Of a stretch of 64,000 nt of DNA, positions 6,659-35,172 are shown in pieces. How positions within the stretch are numbered: the first letter of the stretch is position 1; each line of letters starts with the position of its first letter. The stretch is taken from NCBI GenBank assembly GCA_021927905.1, contig BLLK01000051.1:868001-932000 (forward strand). Direction: 5' to 3'. Under the pieces are notes generated by a model. That model made no database searches, had not been told where the DNA came from, and saw only the letters and a program-made list of their open reading frames with translations. Both the position numbers and the translations under genes were made by a program. This DNA comes from Chaetoceros tenuissimus. Taxonomy: Eukaryota; Bacillariophyta; Thalassiosirophyceae; Chaetocerotales; Chaetocerotaceae.

Positions 6659-9040
6659 CTATAAATCTCGACGATCTATTCGAGAAATACCAGAAGTCTC
6701 ACCGAACAATAGTGATCTATTCTGCTTTCGTTCTTTCTGTTCTTGAGTTGCTCTAGATCTTTTGACATCTGATAATGACTTCACCACGTTATCACCATTT
6801 GGACCCGCTACTGTCACTCTTGAGAAATGTAGTAATTTGCGATTCAAACCGGTTGACTGAGTTGGGTTAGTTTTGATTTGCTCGACATTTGGCATCACAT
6901 CTGCCTTTTGGGTGTATTCTTTCTTCTCGGGTAGACTCATTTTTGTTTCTCCATACCCTAGCTCTGCTTTTCCTACTATATCTGTGCCTACATTCACTTC
7001 GATCGGACCTTTTTCAATCTTCACTTCATTTTGTAATTGCACTTTATCGATCTTCGACAGTTTTGACTCTGATCGCAATTCAACTGATGGAGTAAGGTCT
7101 ACCCTTTCCAAACGCTTACTCCCTCTTTGAGAATCGTTATTTAGTCTTTCTTTCGTTATATCCCACATCATCTTTGCTAGATCTTTGTAATTTCTTCGCT
7201 CTTGTTTGTACTGCATGATTAATTCATTCTGTTCGGCAAGCATTTCTTCGAGTTTTGCTTTTTCTACTGCTGCTATTTTCTTAATGCTCTCCATTTCTAT
7301 TATATGGTTTGCTTTCAATTCATTTATTTCAAGTCTGGCACTTTCTTTTGATTCATTCAATTCCTTAGTTACTTCTGATATTTTGCTTTGGAGCTGAGTT
7401 TTCATCTTGTCCATTTCTTCCGAAAAAGAAGATTTGGTGAATTCCAACTCATGATTTTTCTCATCCAATATTTGTTTCTTTTCTTTTTTAAACGCAGCTG
7501 TGAGATTCTCAACCTTTTTCTCTAAAGTGATTGTCCTTGTAGAATTTTGACGTCGTTCTGAATCCAGTGTCTTTTCCAATGAGCTTATTTCCTTGGAATA
7601 CTTTCTTTCAAGATCGTTGAGCATTTTCGTAGATCTGGCCGAAGTGACTTCTTCAAGAAAGTTCTTACGGGATTTGTTTGATTCATCTTTTTGTATAGCA
7701 TCCAAGAAGGATTTGTTACTAAAAAATTCTGTCTGTATTAGCTCAAGAGTATTGGTAAAGTCCATCTTTGCTTTTGCATAAAACATCTCTTCTGCGTTCA
7801 AACGCTCCATTAGATTTTGAACTTTGTCCCTATGCTTCTGTTTCAATGAGGTGATTTCTTCTTCGAATTCATACTTTGCAGAATTATACCTTTCATCGGC
7901 TTGCCTTTCAAATTTTGCTAGCTTGAATCTGGCAGTGTCTAGCTGGGTGGAGACGTCCCATATTTTCTTCCTCAAATTCTTTTTCTCGATATTGACCATT
8001 TGGATCATGTCTTTCTCAGCAAGATTTCTTTGTTCTTTCATCTGTTTGCCTACCTCTTGTTTTACTTTGGACATCTCTTTGGTCATGGAGTTCAGCTTTT
8101 GATTCATGACAACCAAGTCTCTCTCGCGTGCGTGAAGCAACGATAATAATTTAAACTTTTCACTCTGTGTACGACTAAGATCTGATTGCACTGATTCTAC
8201 CGATTGAATATGGAGCTGTTCTTTTGGTACTTTTTTCAGCTCATCTTCTTGTACACGAGTTTTATCCTGCAGCTTTTCGATTTGATTATTTAGATCTTCA
8301 ACTTGCAGTGATAAAGATTCCTTTTCCGATTTCATTGTTTTCTGAGTATTCTCAAGCGTAGCTATCTTAGACTCCAAGTCCGAAATAGTTTTGGCCTTTT
8401 TCTCAACGACACTGCGATCAACGGAATTTTCTATGATTTCCCTCATCCTATTGCTCATCTCATCTAATTGAATGTGTAGCGTCTCTAATTCCTGTTGAAG
8501 AGCAACCTGTTCTTTCTCAGATTGTTCATATTGATCTTTGATATCACTCAATTGAAATCTCAGACGTGCATGTTTAGCTTCGTAATATTTCTGTAGAGAT
8601 TCTATTGTAACAGTATTTGTCTTTTGCTCATCTTCATTTTGTTTGGGCGAGGCCTTATCTATTTTTTTGAACGGTTTATTCTCCTGTTTTTGTTTCTTCT
8701 TCTTAGCCGGTCCTATTTGATCCTCTCGACTTCGAGAAGCCATATAAGTAACTTCTTTCTTGGATCGTTTCTCTCTTTTAGTCTTTTTATCATCTATATA
8801 ACCAGGCAAACATTGCTCTCCTGATTCTCTGTTGAATGCAGGAAGCAAAGCATCTTTGTTTCTACCCTTTTTCTTCAAAAAGATTATGGGCGACTGTCTT
8901 GTAACAATTGATGTTGTACTACCTATCATCCTATTGTCCACCGTGGTGATAAAAGAAGCAGCTGATACATGATGACTATGATTTCTGTATACAGATAAAC
9001 ACAGCAACAGCGTTTTTAATGCTTCATTCTTCAGACTCAT
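6659..9040 (-). CDS. Large coiled-coil protein, possibly secretory/plastid targeted
   Basis: 793 aa, single exon. Residues about 120-640 are almost continuous heptad-type coiled coil rich in E, K, Q and L. The N-terminus is hydrophobic (ALKTLLLCLSVYRNH) and followed by VSAASFITTV, which could be a signal peptide cleaved before Phe, the rule for diatom plastid presequences; I hold this weakly because a basic, NLS-like region (KKKKQKQENKPFKK) comes soon after. Its C-terminus lies 70 bp from the convergent 2OG-like gene. No enzymatic motif; a structural or tethering role is the only inference that fits. Confidence 0.6.
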   Translation of the reverse strand: MSLKNEALKTLLLCLSVYRNHSHHVSAASFITTVDNRMIGSTTSIVTRQSPIIFLKKKGRNKDALLPAFNRESGEQCLPGYIDDKKTKREKRSKKEVTYMASRSREDQIGPAKKKKQKQENKPFKKIDKASPKQNEDEQKTNTVTIESLQKYYEAKHARLRFQLSDIKDQYEQSEKEQVALQQELETLHIQLDEMSNRMREIIENSVDRSVVEKKAKTISDLESKIATLENTQKTMKSEKESLSLQVEDLNNQIEKLQDKTRVQEDELKKVPKEQLHIQSVESVQSDLSRTQSEKFKLLSLLHARERDLVVMNQKLNSMTKEMSKVKQEVGKQMKEQRNLAEKDMIQMVNIEKKNLRKKIWDVSTQLDTARFKLAKFERQADERYNSAKYEFEEEITSLKQKHRDKVQNLMERLNAEEMFYAKAKMDFTNTLELIQTEFFSNKSFLDAIQKDESNKSRKNFLEEVTSARSTKMLNDLERKYSKEISSLEKTLDSERRQNSTRTITLEKKVENLTAAFKKEKKQILDEKNHELEFTKSSFSEEMDKMKTQLQSKISEVTKELNESKESARLEINELKANHIIEMESIKKIAAVEKAKLEEMLAEQNELIMQYKQERRNYKDLAKMMWDITKERLNNDSQRGSKRLERVDLTPSVELRSESKLSKIDKVQLQNEVKIEKGPIEVNVGTDIVGKAELGYGETKMSLPEKKEYTQKADVMPNVEQIKTNPTQSTGLNRKLLHFSRVTVAGPNGDNVVKSLSDVKRSRATQEQKERKQNRSLLFGETSGISRIDRRDL

Positions 9041-30926: not shown

Positions 30927-31006
<80 letters not shown>

Positions 31007-31977: not shown

Positions 31978-33477
31978 ATGAGCTGCAAAGCAAAGACATC
32001 GTTGTTGGTATCTCGGCAAACATCTTCTTCTTCTAGTAATGGTCGACCTGTACCTTATTCTACATCTGGAAGAACAGCAAGATTATTAACAAGTCTGCCT
32101 TCTCTAGACGAGTCTATACGGAGCATTGACACTGCATCCATTGCTTCGATATCATCGCTGTCGTCGTCATTGTCAATCAGGAACTGCTTCTACGTGTTAC
32201 TTGGTGCATCTTTATTTAGTATACTGCGAGTGGCAGAAGTGGACATGATGATGTTGTATCATACAAACATGAACTTTGCATCGCTCGCCGTCCTTCCTTC
32301 GTTTTCAAACATTGATTCAACTTCCACGAAAGCAAAGAAGGATCTACCGAAATCCATAGGCAATGCGGAGACATTGGTATCATCACTTGTACATACTTAT
32401 GCGACTCCTGTCTTGCAGAAACAGCAGTATAACCTTGCTCAATCGACAGAAGAGAATTATGCCTCCTCTACACAAGAATTTCATGGCAAATTCACAGAGA
32501 TTCGAAAAGGACTGGACTATTCCTATCATGCGAATTATACACCTCAACGACAGCATTTACAAGATAGCATCTTGACCTATCTTTTATCCTCCAAACATCC
32601 CATTTCGATACCCAAAGATCCAACTTCTCTCTACAGTACTAGTAGTACCAGTGACAATGGTAAAAGTGAAAGTAATACCAAGTCTACAACTACATGTTTG
32701 ACTCCTGTCAATCCATGGATTGTATTCACAGCGGGAGCTATGGGAAGTGGTAAGTCATACACGATTCGAAAATTACATCAGCAGGATAGATTTCCATTGG
32801 AGACATTCGTCACGGTTGATCCGGATGAAATTCGAAGATTGTTACCTGAATTTGAATGGTATTTGGAACACGATCCTGTTGTAGCAGGGGAAGCGACTCG
32901 TAAAGAAGCTGGACTGTTGGCAGAAATGCTGACGCAGATTGCACTTAAGTATGGTAGGAATGTGCTTGTGGATGGGAGTTTGAATGATGCCGAGTGGTAT
33001 CATGATTACTTTCAGGATTTAAGGAGAGATTATGGAAAGTACGGTTTGAAAATTGGGATCTTGCATGTTACAGCTCCAAGAGATGCTGTTTTTGAGAGAG
33101 CAGAGGTGAGTTATCATGGACAGTTCAGGATATAATTTGTTGCAACTATTTCTTAGAGGTTGCTAACTTATGCCTTTTTCTATATATAGATGCGATCGAA
33201 GATTACCAAACGAGTTGTTCCTAGGCATCGCCTAGAAGAAACCTTGGCAAAGGTTCCCCAATCCGTTAGGAAACTTGCCCCTCTTGTGGATTTTCATGCG
33301 GAACTTCATAACGGTGTAGACTCTGATGATATTGAATTGGTATCAAGTGAATTGAATTGGACCATGTTTCGTCAAATTTGGGATCAGAAATGTAATGTTC
33401 AAAAGAGAGATGAAAGCATAAGCTTGAATCATAGTGAAGATACTCAAATGACATACAACATGAGAAGCAAATTGTAA
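31978..33477 (+). CDS. Membrane-anchored P-loop kinase with zeta-toxin-like fold
   Basis: Exons 31978..33105 and 33190..33477 (84-nt intron, GTGAGT, CTAAC, TATATAG), 471 aa. Ser/Thr-rich N-terminus, a hydrophobic segment near residues 65-85 (CFYVLLGASLFSILRVA) suggesting a type II anchor, then a P-loop kinase domain: WIVFTAGAMGSGKS (Walker A, about 253-260), FVTVDPDEIRRLLPE, EAGLLAEM, NVLVDGSLND (Walker B-like) and LHVTAPRDAVFERAEMRSK with basic lid residues (TKRVVPRHRL). Eukaryotic proteins with this fold are host enzymes of unknown substrate; this is not a bacterial toxin-antitoxin module, as no antitoxin or bacterial context exists. The stop codon is followed at once by the intron-like repeat cluster. 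Confidence 0.75.
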
Positions 33478-33507
33478 TTCAGTGCAGCTATATACATCAC
33501 ACAAAAG

Positions 33508-33647
33508 GTGAGTGTAGATTTCTCCCTGCCGCCCCTCGAACAAAATGAGATTCTTTCTTGCTTCTTTGGTAGGATTGGGTTTCTCCCAGGCAACCATCGA
33601 AAAAAATGAGATTTATATTCACTTAGACTTTGTCTAACCTCTCCCAA
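33508..33647 (+). repeat. Introner-like element 1 (140 nt)
   Basis: Starts GTGAGTGTAG after ...CAAAAG, ends GTCTAACCTCTCCCAAG: donor, branch point, pyrimidine tract and acceptor in order. It is the longest unit because the block TTTCTCCC...TCGAA.AAAATGAGATT is present twice inside it. Lies 30 nt after the kinase stop codon. Confidence 0.65.
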
Positions 33648-33744
33648 GTCACTTGACCTGATAGTGATATATGGAATCATTTACCAATAGCTCAATTCTT
33701 TTCACAGAAAAGGATTGAATTGTATATATAAACATATCGGACAG

Positions 33745-33847
33745 GTGAGTGCAGGATTTCTCCAACAGTCTTCCAAACCCTTATTGGAGACTTTCGACCA
33801 AAATGAGATTTTGTGTTCACTTAGACTTTGTCTAACCCCTTTACTAG
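33745..33847 (+). repeat. Introner-like element 2 (103 nt)
   Basis: Starts GTGAGTGCAGGATTTCTCC after ACAG, ends GTCTAACCCCTTTACTAG. About 92% identical (8 mismatches by my count) to element 4, same length. Contains a small inverted repeat (AGTCTTCCAA / TTGGAGACTT). Confidence 0.65.
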
Positions 33848-33918
33848 TATCTCGAACAGAAATGACGTCCATACATACATAGATTTGCATGTGATTGATG
33901 TCTCTGAGACCTCAGTAG

Positions 33919-34037
33919 GTGAGTGTAAAATTTCTCCCTGTCGTATAGCTTCATATCCACCTTAATTATGAAGTTTGGCAACTTTTGACCAAAATGAGAT
34001 TTTACCTTCATTTAGACTTTGTCTAACCCCTCCCAAG
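33919..34037 (+). repeat. Introner-like element 3 (119 nt)
   Basis: Starts GTGAGTGTAAAATTTCTCC after GTAG, ends GTCTAACCCCTCCCAAG. Shares TTTTGACCAAAATGAGATTT and ATTTAGACTTTGTCTAACC with the other units; the middle is different. Confidence 0.65.
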
Positions 34038-34106
34038 TTGTTTTTCAATCCGAAAGCATTTACCCAATACTTAACAAGAGAAGAGAATAGATTTGTATAA
34101 AAACAG

Positions 34107-34209
34107 GTGAGTGCAGGATTTCTCCAACAGTCTTTCAAAAACTTATTTGAGACTTTCGACCAAAATGAGATTTTGTGTTCACTTAGACTTTGTCTAACCA
34201 CCCTTCTAG
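34107..34209 (+). repeat. Introner-like element 4 (103 nt)
   Basis: Starts GTGAGTGCAGGATTTCTCC after ACAG, ends GTCTAACCACCCTTCTAG. Near copy of element 2. About 85 bp after its end another ACAG/GTGAAT sequence (34291) occurs without any element body. Confidence 0.65.
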
Positions 34210-34492
34210 TATTATTATAGGCAATCATACACTGATACAATATCTTGATTATTATTATTAAAAGATAGCTACTGTAATAGAATAATGCTGACAGGTGAAT
34301 CATTTTTGAAAGTATTCACTCATGTCGAAGCTATCAATTTACTCATTCTGAGTAAAAGTGTACATATCGTGTGTAATCATGTAAGAATAATTTGCGGATA
34401 TCTACGTACCTAGTTTTCTTGTAGTAGAGGCTCATGGTCAAAATCCATGACCTTGTTTTTCAAAAGGTTTGTTTATGCAGATTTTCAAACCA

Positions 34493-35172
34493 CTACACGC
34501 GGAAAAAACGTGAACCTGAAAAAAAACGTGAACCTGGAGGTGGTCACACAGCAAGTACACTACTAACGGACATAGCCAAAATACCGTGTACAATGAAAAA
34601 AAAATATTGCAGAAATAAAAAATCCATACCACAACCATCTTCAACACGCACAAATACACATGTTTTGTATTGGAACATAAGCGATTTTTTCATTTTTTGC
34701 CCATTTTTGAAAACTCAACCCTCTGGTATGGTTTGTACGGTGGATGTCACGTAGAGGTTGTCGATGCAATTGAAAAAAATATTGTAAATATACTAAAGCC
34801 ATAGCATAAACATCTTCTATATATATAAATATACATCTTTTGTATTGGAACTATACTGATTTCTTGATTTCTTAATCATTTTTGAATAATCAACTCTCTG
34901 GTATGGTTTGTACGTAGAAGGGCACCGGATTCACGTAGAGATTGTTGGCATCCATATGTCGGTAACTCATCGAAAACACAAAAACTCAATCTTGTTCCAG
35001 TACAAAAGATATACATTTAAACACATAGAAGATGATTATGCTATGGATTTAGTATTTTTACAATATTTTTTTTCCAATTGTACATGTATTTTTATCTATG
35101 TCCGTTAGTAGTGTACTTGCTTTTGTTGCCCAGAAGAACGTGAACCTGGGTTCACGTTTTTTCCGCGTGTAG
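34493..35172. mobile_element. Non-autonomous DNA transposon with long terminal inverted repeats (foldback/MITE-like)
   Basis: The ends are inverted copies: CTACACGCGGAAAAAACGTG (continuing AACC, 24 bp perfect) at 34493 and its reverse complement ending at 35172. Similarity continues inward as an imperfect inverted repeat of 200 bp or more (e.g. GCAAGTACACTACTAACGGA near each end). Both sides are flanked by ACCA (34489-34492 and 35173-35176), a possible 4-bp target duplication. Internally a 175-bp segment is tandemly repeated (CTCTGGTATGGTTTGTACG at 34721 and 34896). No coding sequence, so it would depend on a transposase elsewhere; the superfamily is unclear. Confidence 0.8.

Follow-up and report, generated by a model that had tools for sequence, protein, structure and literature searches.

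Four related units behind a kinase gene

We analysed a stretch of 64,000 nucleotides from the diatom Chaetoceros tenuissimus (hereafter the window; positions 868,001 to 932,000 of contig BLLK01000051.1, assembly GCA_021927905.1), in which four short related units, E1 to E4, lie in a row downstream of a kinase gene. The genome that was searched comprised 41,027,912 bases in 68 contigs, with the window at C38:868001-932000; the genome paper reports 41 Mb in 85 scaffolds, the largest up to 4.46 Mb (PMC8613185). The genes, units and spacers described below are all on the forward strand. The kinase (zeta-toxin-fold/P-loop kinase, PF06414) is encoded by exon 1 at 31978-33105 and exon 2 at 33190-33477, the latter delimited up to its stop codon by comparison with a relative, P0002. 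Between them the protein fit placed an ordinary intron of 84 nt (33106-33189, GTGAGT...TATAG), the folding of which was not unusual (z 0.29). The kinase protein was 100% identical over 94% of the query to the deposited protein CTEN210_12487 of C. tenuissimus. The original prediction, which had been made from the letters of the DNA and had read the units as recently active introners of a diatom, was thus right about the host. At least 390 relatives of the kinase (31978-33477) were found at E <= 0.001 among the 8000 candidates scored, and named proteins of several diatoms were among the 120 relatives listed.

The product of exon 2 shares 87 of 95 residues with P0002, and both proteins end at the same point. 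P0002 retains the C-terminus encoded by 33392-33477, and the intron that the deposited protein implies at 33392-33487 is therefore doubtful. As had been proposed, the units most probably lie beyond the true stop codon, the first of them by 30 nt, and the annotation of CTEN210_12487 is probably wrong at 33392-33487, where it splices out a C-terminus common to a close relative. When P0002 was looked for in viral contigs, two stretches fitted a pattern and neither encoded a relative.

E1 (33508-33648, 141 nt) and E3 (33919-34037, 119 nt) are of class A, while E2 (33745-33847) and E4 (34107-34209), 103 nt each, are of class B. All four were present at the positions first given, except that E1 ends at 33648 and not at 33647. 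Each unit begins with GTGAGTG directly after an AG and finishes in AG, so the predicted splice-site anatomy was confirmed; CTAAC is present in all four, with the AG 11-12 nt past the presumed branch A, and a T stands directly 3' of every unit. The high identity claimed for the units was also borne out, E2 and E4 being identical at 95 of 103 positions in an ungapped alignment. The supposedly shared core ACCAAAATGAGATTTT occurs without mismatch in E2, E3 and E4, whereas E1 carries two altered versions of it, with 2 and 3 mismatches. E3 reads ATTTAGAC where E1, E2 and E4 read ACTTAGAC, a difference of one base just before the hairpin block described below. The exact 16-mer TTAGACTTTGTCTAAC occurred four times in the 41 Mb, each time within the array, and none of 100 shuffles of the window gave four matches to it at up to three mismatches. 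A minus-strand open reading frame at 33962-34303 was rejected as a repeat protein: seven candidates were obtained, none at E <= 1, and the frame is broken by a base missing from E1.

Evidence for splicing came from the deposited protein of 503 residues, which was fitted to the window with GT-AG introns of 40-399 nt allowed. The fit gave a single exon chain with its stop inside the third spacer, S3, and implied introns at 33106-33189, 33392-33487, 33508-33648, 33664-33824 and 33919-34037. The third and the fifth are E1 and E3, and their borders are thus the same as those obtained by comparing the repeats with one another. The original proposal that the units are spliced introns is matched to the base by implied introns for these two; E2 was modelled otherwise, and E4 lies uncovered, past the last coding exon of the deposited protein. 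Genes had been predicted with BRAKER2, using RNA-seq reads mapped by TopHat2, and public RNA-seq is available as DRA011082 (PMC8613185). The model sheds the C-terminus that is conserved in the relative to reach E1 and E3, as if it may have been driven by intron hints.

Copies, spacers and growth of the array

No unit was found outside the array in the 41 Mb. When the 702-bp region, E2 and E3 were used as blastn queries against the whole genome, the array was the only match. A two-part core pattern matched the whole genome three times, always in the array (control 1), E1 being unable to match with its different gap length, and the hairpin with a free loop matched four times, again always in the array (control 1). 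Looser patterns gave single matches outside the array at about control level: five for a hairpin with one mismatch (control 5), one for the 5' end with three mismatches (control 1) and four for the core with one or two mismatches (control 2). Since blastn can skip very common words, a positive control was run with a 680-bp element of the window (34493-35172), which yielded 48 matches drawn from 20 candidate places, a count that takes in the element itself and its inverted halves. The exact 17-mer had no match in viral contigs.

A covariance model was applied to the window, to ten loci preselected by short patterns and to 198,000 other bases. The units scored 100-131 bits and the ten loci no more than 19.0 bits. 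Over the window the model returned the four units and two weak matches, of which the better (E 0.18) falls on the strand opposite to E3 and the other (E 0.9) at 6908-7018. Of the four matches obtained over the ten loci, those at L012 (19.0 bits; E 0.0075) and at L030 (12.3 bits) extend across the model, and the others are L026 (10.8 bits) and L021 (10.7 bits). The 198,000 other bases plus L012 gave seven, of which L012 was the best (E 0.05) and the next reached 16.5 bits. L012 was rejected as a relative of the units; it had been picked for its hairpin and is without most of the main stem. The mutually identical loci L013 and L014, two of the five that have the hairpin with one mismatch, were rejected as well and look, by eye only, like reverse-transcriptase coding sequence. 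As the model covered part of the genome, very diverged copies may exist elsewhere. The search for dispersed copies that the original prediction had itself proposed therefore went against it: the copies in many unrelated places that would mark introners were not seen, while the control repeat from the same window turned up elsewhere, and the reading as recently active introners found no support.

Other repeats were noted in passing. The 680-bp element at 34493-35172 has perfect terminal inverted repeats of 24 bp and is possibly flanked by ACCA on both sides, as judged by eye; four other long copies, of 88-90% identity, are without its first 57 bases, and the element belongs to a dispersed inverted-repeat family. 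Ten Helitron_like_N matches, nine of them over the cut-off, were found on C3, C27, C32, C33, C34 and other contigs. Five of them score 68.5 bits and three 59.6 bits, and these shared scores suggest recent copies of a rolling-circle transposon. A long TA microsatellite lies at 30930-31003.

The three spacers, S1 (33649-33744, a putative exon in the 3' untranslated region, UTR), S2 (33848-33918) and S3 (34038-34106), tell something about how the array grew. S1 and S3 are homologous. Their local alignment score was 44 against a mean of 20.5 and a maximum of 35 in 1000 dinucleotide shuffles, and their global score was reached by none of 2000 shuffles. The other nine spacer pairs, the flank-derived S0 and S4 included, were not significant (p 0.095-0.99). 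The spacers had been called unrelated, which does not hold for S1 and S3. Similarity running across the spacers had been named as the sign of an ordinary satellite, and it was found for that one pair only; the same pair, one in ten, shows the shared spacer ancestry expected of tandem duplication. At least one growth step was therefore the duplication of a longer block. The spacing of the unit starts, originally likened to that of nucleosomes, comprises just three intervals, and the first and third of them (237 and 188) contain the homologous spacers. S1 is strongly folded and contains a long hairpin that is not kept in its homologue S3, the folding of which is not unusual. Within E1 there is in addition a tandem duplication of 61 bp (33519-33552 against 33580-33613, 28/34 identical over the part compared), and duplication has thus acted at this locus on more than one scale.

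E2 and E4 form one close pair, and E1 and E3 have in common the 5' extension CCTGYCG and the tail CTCCCAAGT. Judged by these letters, the likely order of the array is A-S1-B-S2-A-S3-B (ABAB). The older step, by which A and B became two, may have been an old duplication with a spacer that has drifted beyond recognition, or an insertion. Similarity between A and B spans the unit and stops near its borders; yet that between E2 and E4 overshoots the unit by four bases on the left and three on the right (33741-33850 against 34103-34212), and S1 and S3 are homologous. E2 and E4 differ at 8 of 103 sites, compared with 19 of 68 aligned sites in S1 and S3 (Fisher p 0.0006), and this lower divergence agrees with either constraint acting on the unit or gene conversion.

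Predicted fold of the units

In every unit the first 15-16 nt are predicted to pair with a stretch that ends 26-27 nt before the unit end. The 5' arm of this closing stem, made up of the donor and the next bases, is at 33508-33522 in E1 (partner 33608-33622), 33745-33760 in E2 (partner 33805-33820), 33919-33934 in E3 (partner 33996-34011, with one mismatch) and 34107-34122 in E4 (partner 34167-34182). Directly after the main helix the prediction places a 6-bp hairpin, TTAGAC-TTT-GTCTAA, which carries the branch-site-like CTAAC on its 3' side and occupies 33623-33638 in E1, 33821-33836 in E2, 34012-34027 in E3 and 34183-34198 in E4. The final G stands 11 nt from the presumed branch A in E1 and E3 and 12 nt from it in E2 and E4, and the main helix would end 15 nt before this A. 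The arms (about 19-21 nt) are conserved, and the loop between them varies in sequence and length.

Folding was stronger than in shuffled sequence, with z of -3.05, -2.64, -3.97 and -2.41 for E1 to E4 (E1 folded one base short) and of -2.49, -2.93, -3.84 and -2.47 in a repeat run. A z of -2.4 or below was seen in all four units and in 0/31 background introns. Among the first 15 nt, 15, 15, 14 and 15 positions were paired in E1 to E4, compared with a maximum of 13 in the 31 introns. These introns are putative ones found by a script in 262 kb of the same genome. The script formed 106 groups and retained 83, of which 57 have no CTRAY close to the end; the 31 that were used have the donor GT[AG][AT]GT and a length of 55-185, and 13 of them have CTRAY. 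The script misplaced the acceptor of the kinase intron (33252, not 33189), so the intron control is rough. Of 40 GTGAGT or GTAAGT sites on both strands of the window, three pair at 14 or more of 15 positions within 104 nt, as do E2, E3 and E4. In the alignment of the units 98.8% of the pair cells were paired, against 18.6-49.4% when one side was slid. There is a single two-sided change, from C-G to U-A, and E1 is without one base in each arm, two losses that appear by eye to compensate each other. On these models the structure of the units is probable, and its conservation by selection is plausible.

Interpretation and comparison with known systems

We favour, with a probability of roughly 0.55, the reading in which the kinase gene carries the units in its 3' UTR as spliceosomal introns that were multiplied locally and are folded, the fold most likely working as a brake. 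An old pair A-B would have come first, with A and B themselves perhaps also derived from tandem duplication, and the block A-S1-B would then have been duplicated. In the pre-mRNA each unit is modelled to fold with its 5' splice site paired to sequence immediately 5' of the branch site, and the 6-bp hairpin behind the helix would enclose the branch site itself. The predicted helix covers the donor and would need to be opened to admit U1, which is why we favour a brake that acts on 3' UTR splicing: donor and branch site would both stay masked for as long as U1/U2, a helicase or a protein has not unwound the helix. The transcripts would then include messages in which the units are retained as well as spliced ones, and the latter would have exon junctions from 30 nt past the stop onward, which could affect their stability.

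A number of results weigh against this reading. The borders modelled for E2 (33664-33824) are not those of the unit and E4 is outside the model, and the implied gene model looks faulty at its C-terminus, which makes its introns weak evidence. As to local duplication, S2 had no detectable homology to any other spacer (p 0.11-0.85), E3 is no nearer to E1 (local score 98) than to E2 (99), and in their middle parts E1 and E3 fail to align (p 0.89). The block duplication, as far as it can be read from sequence, is therefore not a clean one, and the step between A and B is not demonstrated as a duplication. In a fungus, less than 1% of single intron gains were attributed to tandem duplication within the gene, so such an origin was uncommon there (PMC4457414). 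As to the fold, S1 folds as strongly as the units do (z -3.38, 0/200 shuffles), S2 and S3 having z of -0.76 and 0.36. A donor paired far away with a mean probability of at least 0.7 occurred in 6 of the 31 ordinary introns, and a stem of at least 12 from the donor, counted loosely, in three of them. Covariation among the four sequences was not significant: its score was reached in 76 of 500 shuffles, and 425 of the 500 gave at least as many two-sided pairs. In a simulation with eight substitutions counted by hand, no more than one pair was broken with a probability of 0.003-0.083, depending on the transition bias.

The equal nearness of E3 to E2 and the unalignable middles of E1 and E3 lower our confidence in local multiplication and raise that in a possible, though unlikely, alternative, in which the array is what is left of an introner family: mobile introns bearing inverted repeats would have inserted at least twice, as A and as B, and the other copies would have been lost or have decayed. 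Similarity that starts and stops near the splice sites, and an S2 unrelated to S1 and S3, would agree with this. So would an inverted repeat that takes in the donor, as in introners of Amoebophrya and, as stated in the same paper, Aureococcus (PMC7789003); in our units the 3' copy of the repeat ends 26-27 nt inside the unit. However, the whole-genome searches returned the array and nothing else, the homology of S1 and S3 is that of a duplicated longer block, and no target-site duplication was seen by eye. The two units that the protein implies as introns are also fewer than the four per family kept in a survey of introners (PMC9860276). Also unlikely is the view that selection keeps a folded intron RNA while the exons drift, either for a functional small or structured RNA that is excised in the manner of a tailed mirtron or for a splicing switch in the 3' UTR.

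We consider it improbable that the units are a cluster resembling 3'-tailed mirtrons, in which the 5' hairpin would be processed into small RNAs after splicing and debranching. The hairpin runs from intron base 1 to next to the branch hairpin, resembling the published definition (PMC4513878), and its two arms are conserved around a variable loop. The predicted hairpin starts at the 5' bound of such mirtrons but stops 15 nt short of the 3' bound, that is, before the presumed branch A, whereas 13 of 17 human tailed mirtrons come within 5 nt (PMC4513878); this weakens the reading, as do a stem of 15-16 bp with many G-U pairs and the lack of an Rfam match near threshold. A single match to Piwi in the genome and four to RNase III, of which three exceed the cut-off, may mean that parts of a small-RNA pathway are present, but these domains are found outside such pathways too. 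For this reading and for the introner remnant, the positive evidence consists of shape and borders only. Similarly improbable are regulatory repeats acting at the DNA level, that is, near-palindromic protein-binding sites whose intron-like ends would be fortuitous, placed ahead of the next gene (35480). The near-palindrome TTAGACTTTGTCTAA does stand four times in intergenic DNA, but conservation stops near GT and AG in all four units, E1 and E3 equal implied introns, and pairing of arms across 44-85 nt is unexpected for binding sites.

Four structured non-coding RNAs, for example snoRNA-like ones, inside introns of a host transcript are very improbable. The conserved fold within putative introns whose exons are poorly conserved would suit them, but Rfam at E <= 10 over 33300-34450 gave four weak matches, all far below their gathering scores (the one overlapping E1, on the opposite strand, reached 16.6 bits against 89), and no pair of C/D boxes was seen by eye. 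The least probable of all are non-autonomous rolling-circle elements of the Helentron/HINE type: their anatomy of 5' and 3' inverted repeats followed by a 3' stem-loop and a short tail resembles that of the units (PMC4067079), Helitron_like_N occurs in the genome as noted above and a T follows all four units, but units and free-loop hairpin are restricted to the array, the 5' flank is AG in 4/4 and not T, dispersed insertions into TT were not found, and 26-27 nt separate the 3' repeat from the end as against 38-60 in mite HINEs (PMC4067079).

No earlier report of the array or of Chaetoceros introners was found among the matches listed from the literature on introners, diatom intron gain and the C. 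tenuissimus genome, and the words 'Diatom', 'stramenopile', 'Bacillariophyta' and 'Ochrophyta' are absent from the main text of the introner survey (PMC9860276). The units resemble the introners of Micromonas, Aureococcus, Amoebophrya and fungi in being short, intron-sized and broadly similar from splice site to splice site; some introner families also have a terminal inverted repeat able to form a hairpin (PMC7789003, PMC8469720), and fungal introners are stated to be devoid of them (PMC9860276). Unlike introners, the units lie at one locus in 41 Mb, the spacer homology shows duplication of a block, and they stand after a stop codon with the predicted branch site in a hairpin of its own. On the favoured reading, look-alike introns in a row need not be introners, and local duplication can build an intron array. 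The sister stwintrons and cropped introns of Hypoxylon are likewise introns of similar sequence with imperfect terminal inverted repeats; their repeats, however, measure about 45-55 nt and the 23 sister stwintrons occupy separate gene positions, as opposed to 15-16 nt and one locus here (PMC8469720).

With respect to the fold, the zipper stems of Saccharomyces introns also join the regions of the 5' splice site and the branch site and so shorten the distance between them, but at least 10 and 20 nt have to remain free beside them (PMC12350175). The helix predicted here takes in the donor from base 1 onward and stops 15 nt short of the presumed branch A, and the units therefore fall outside the definition of a zipper stem. 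In 3'-tailed mirtrons a hairpin from the 5' splice site is followed by a tail with the branch site and the 3' splice site (PMC4513878); the stem of our units is short and rich in G-U pairs, its loop is large and variable, and the branch site would lie inside a second hairpin. Sequestering of a branch site in a structure can control splicing, as in the theophylline system, which is engineered and controlled by a ligand (PMC2275289), whereas the units here have no known ligand. The array is a test case of a predicted intron fold that closes donor and branch site together, and should this fold prove real, RNA structure could govern the splicing that takes place past the stop codon.
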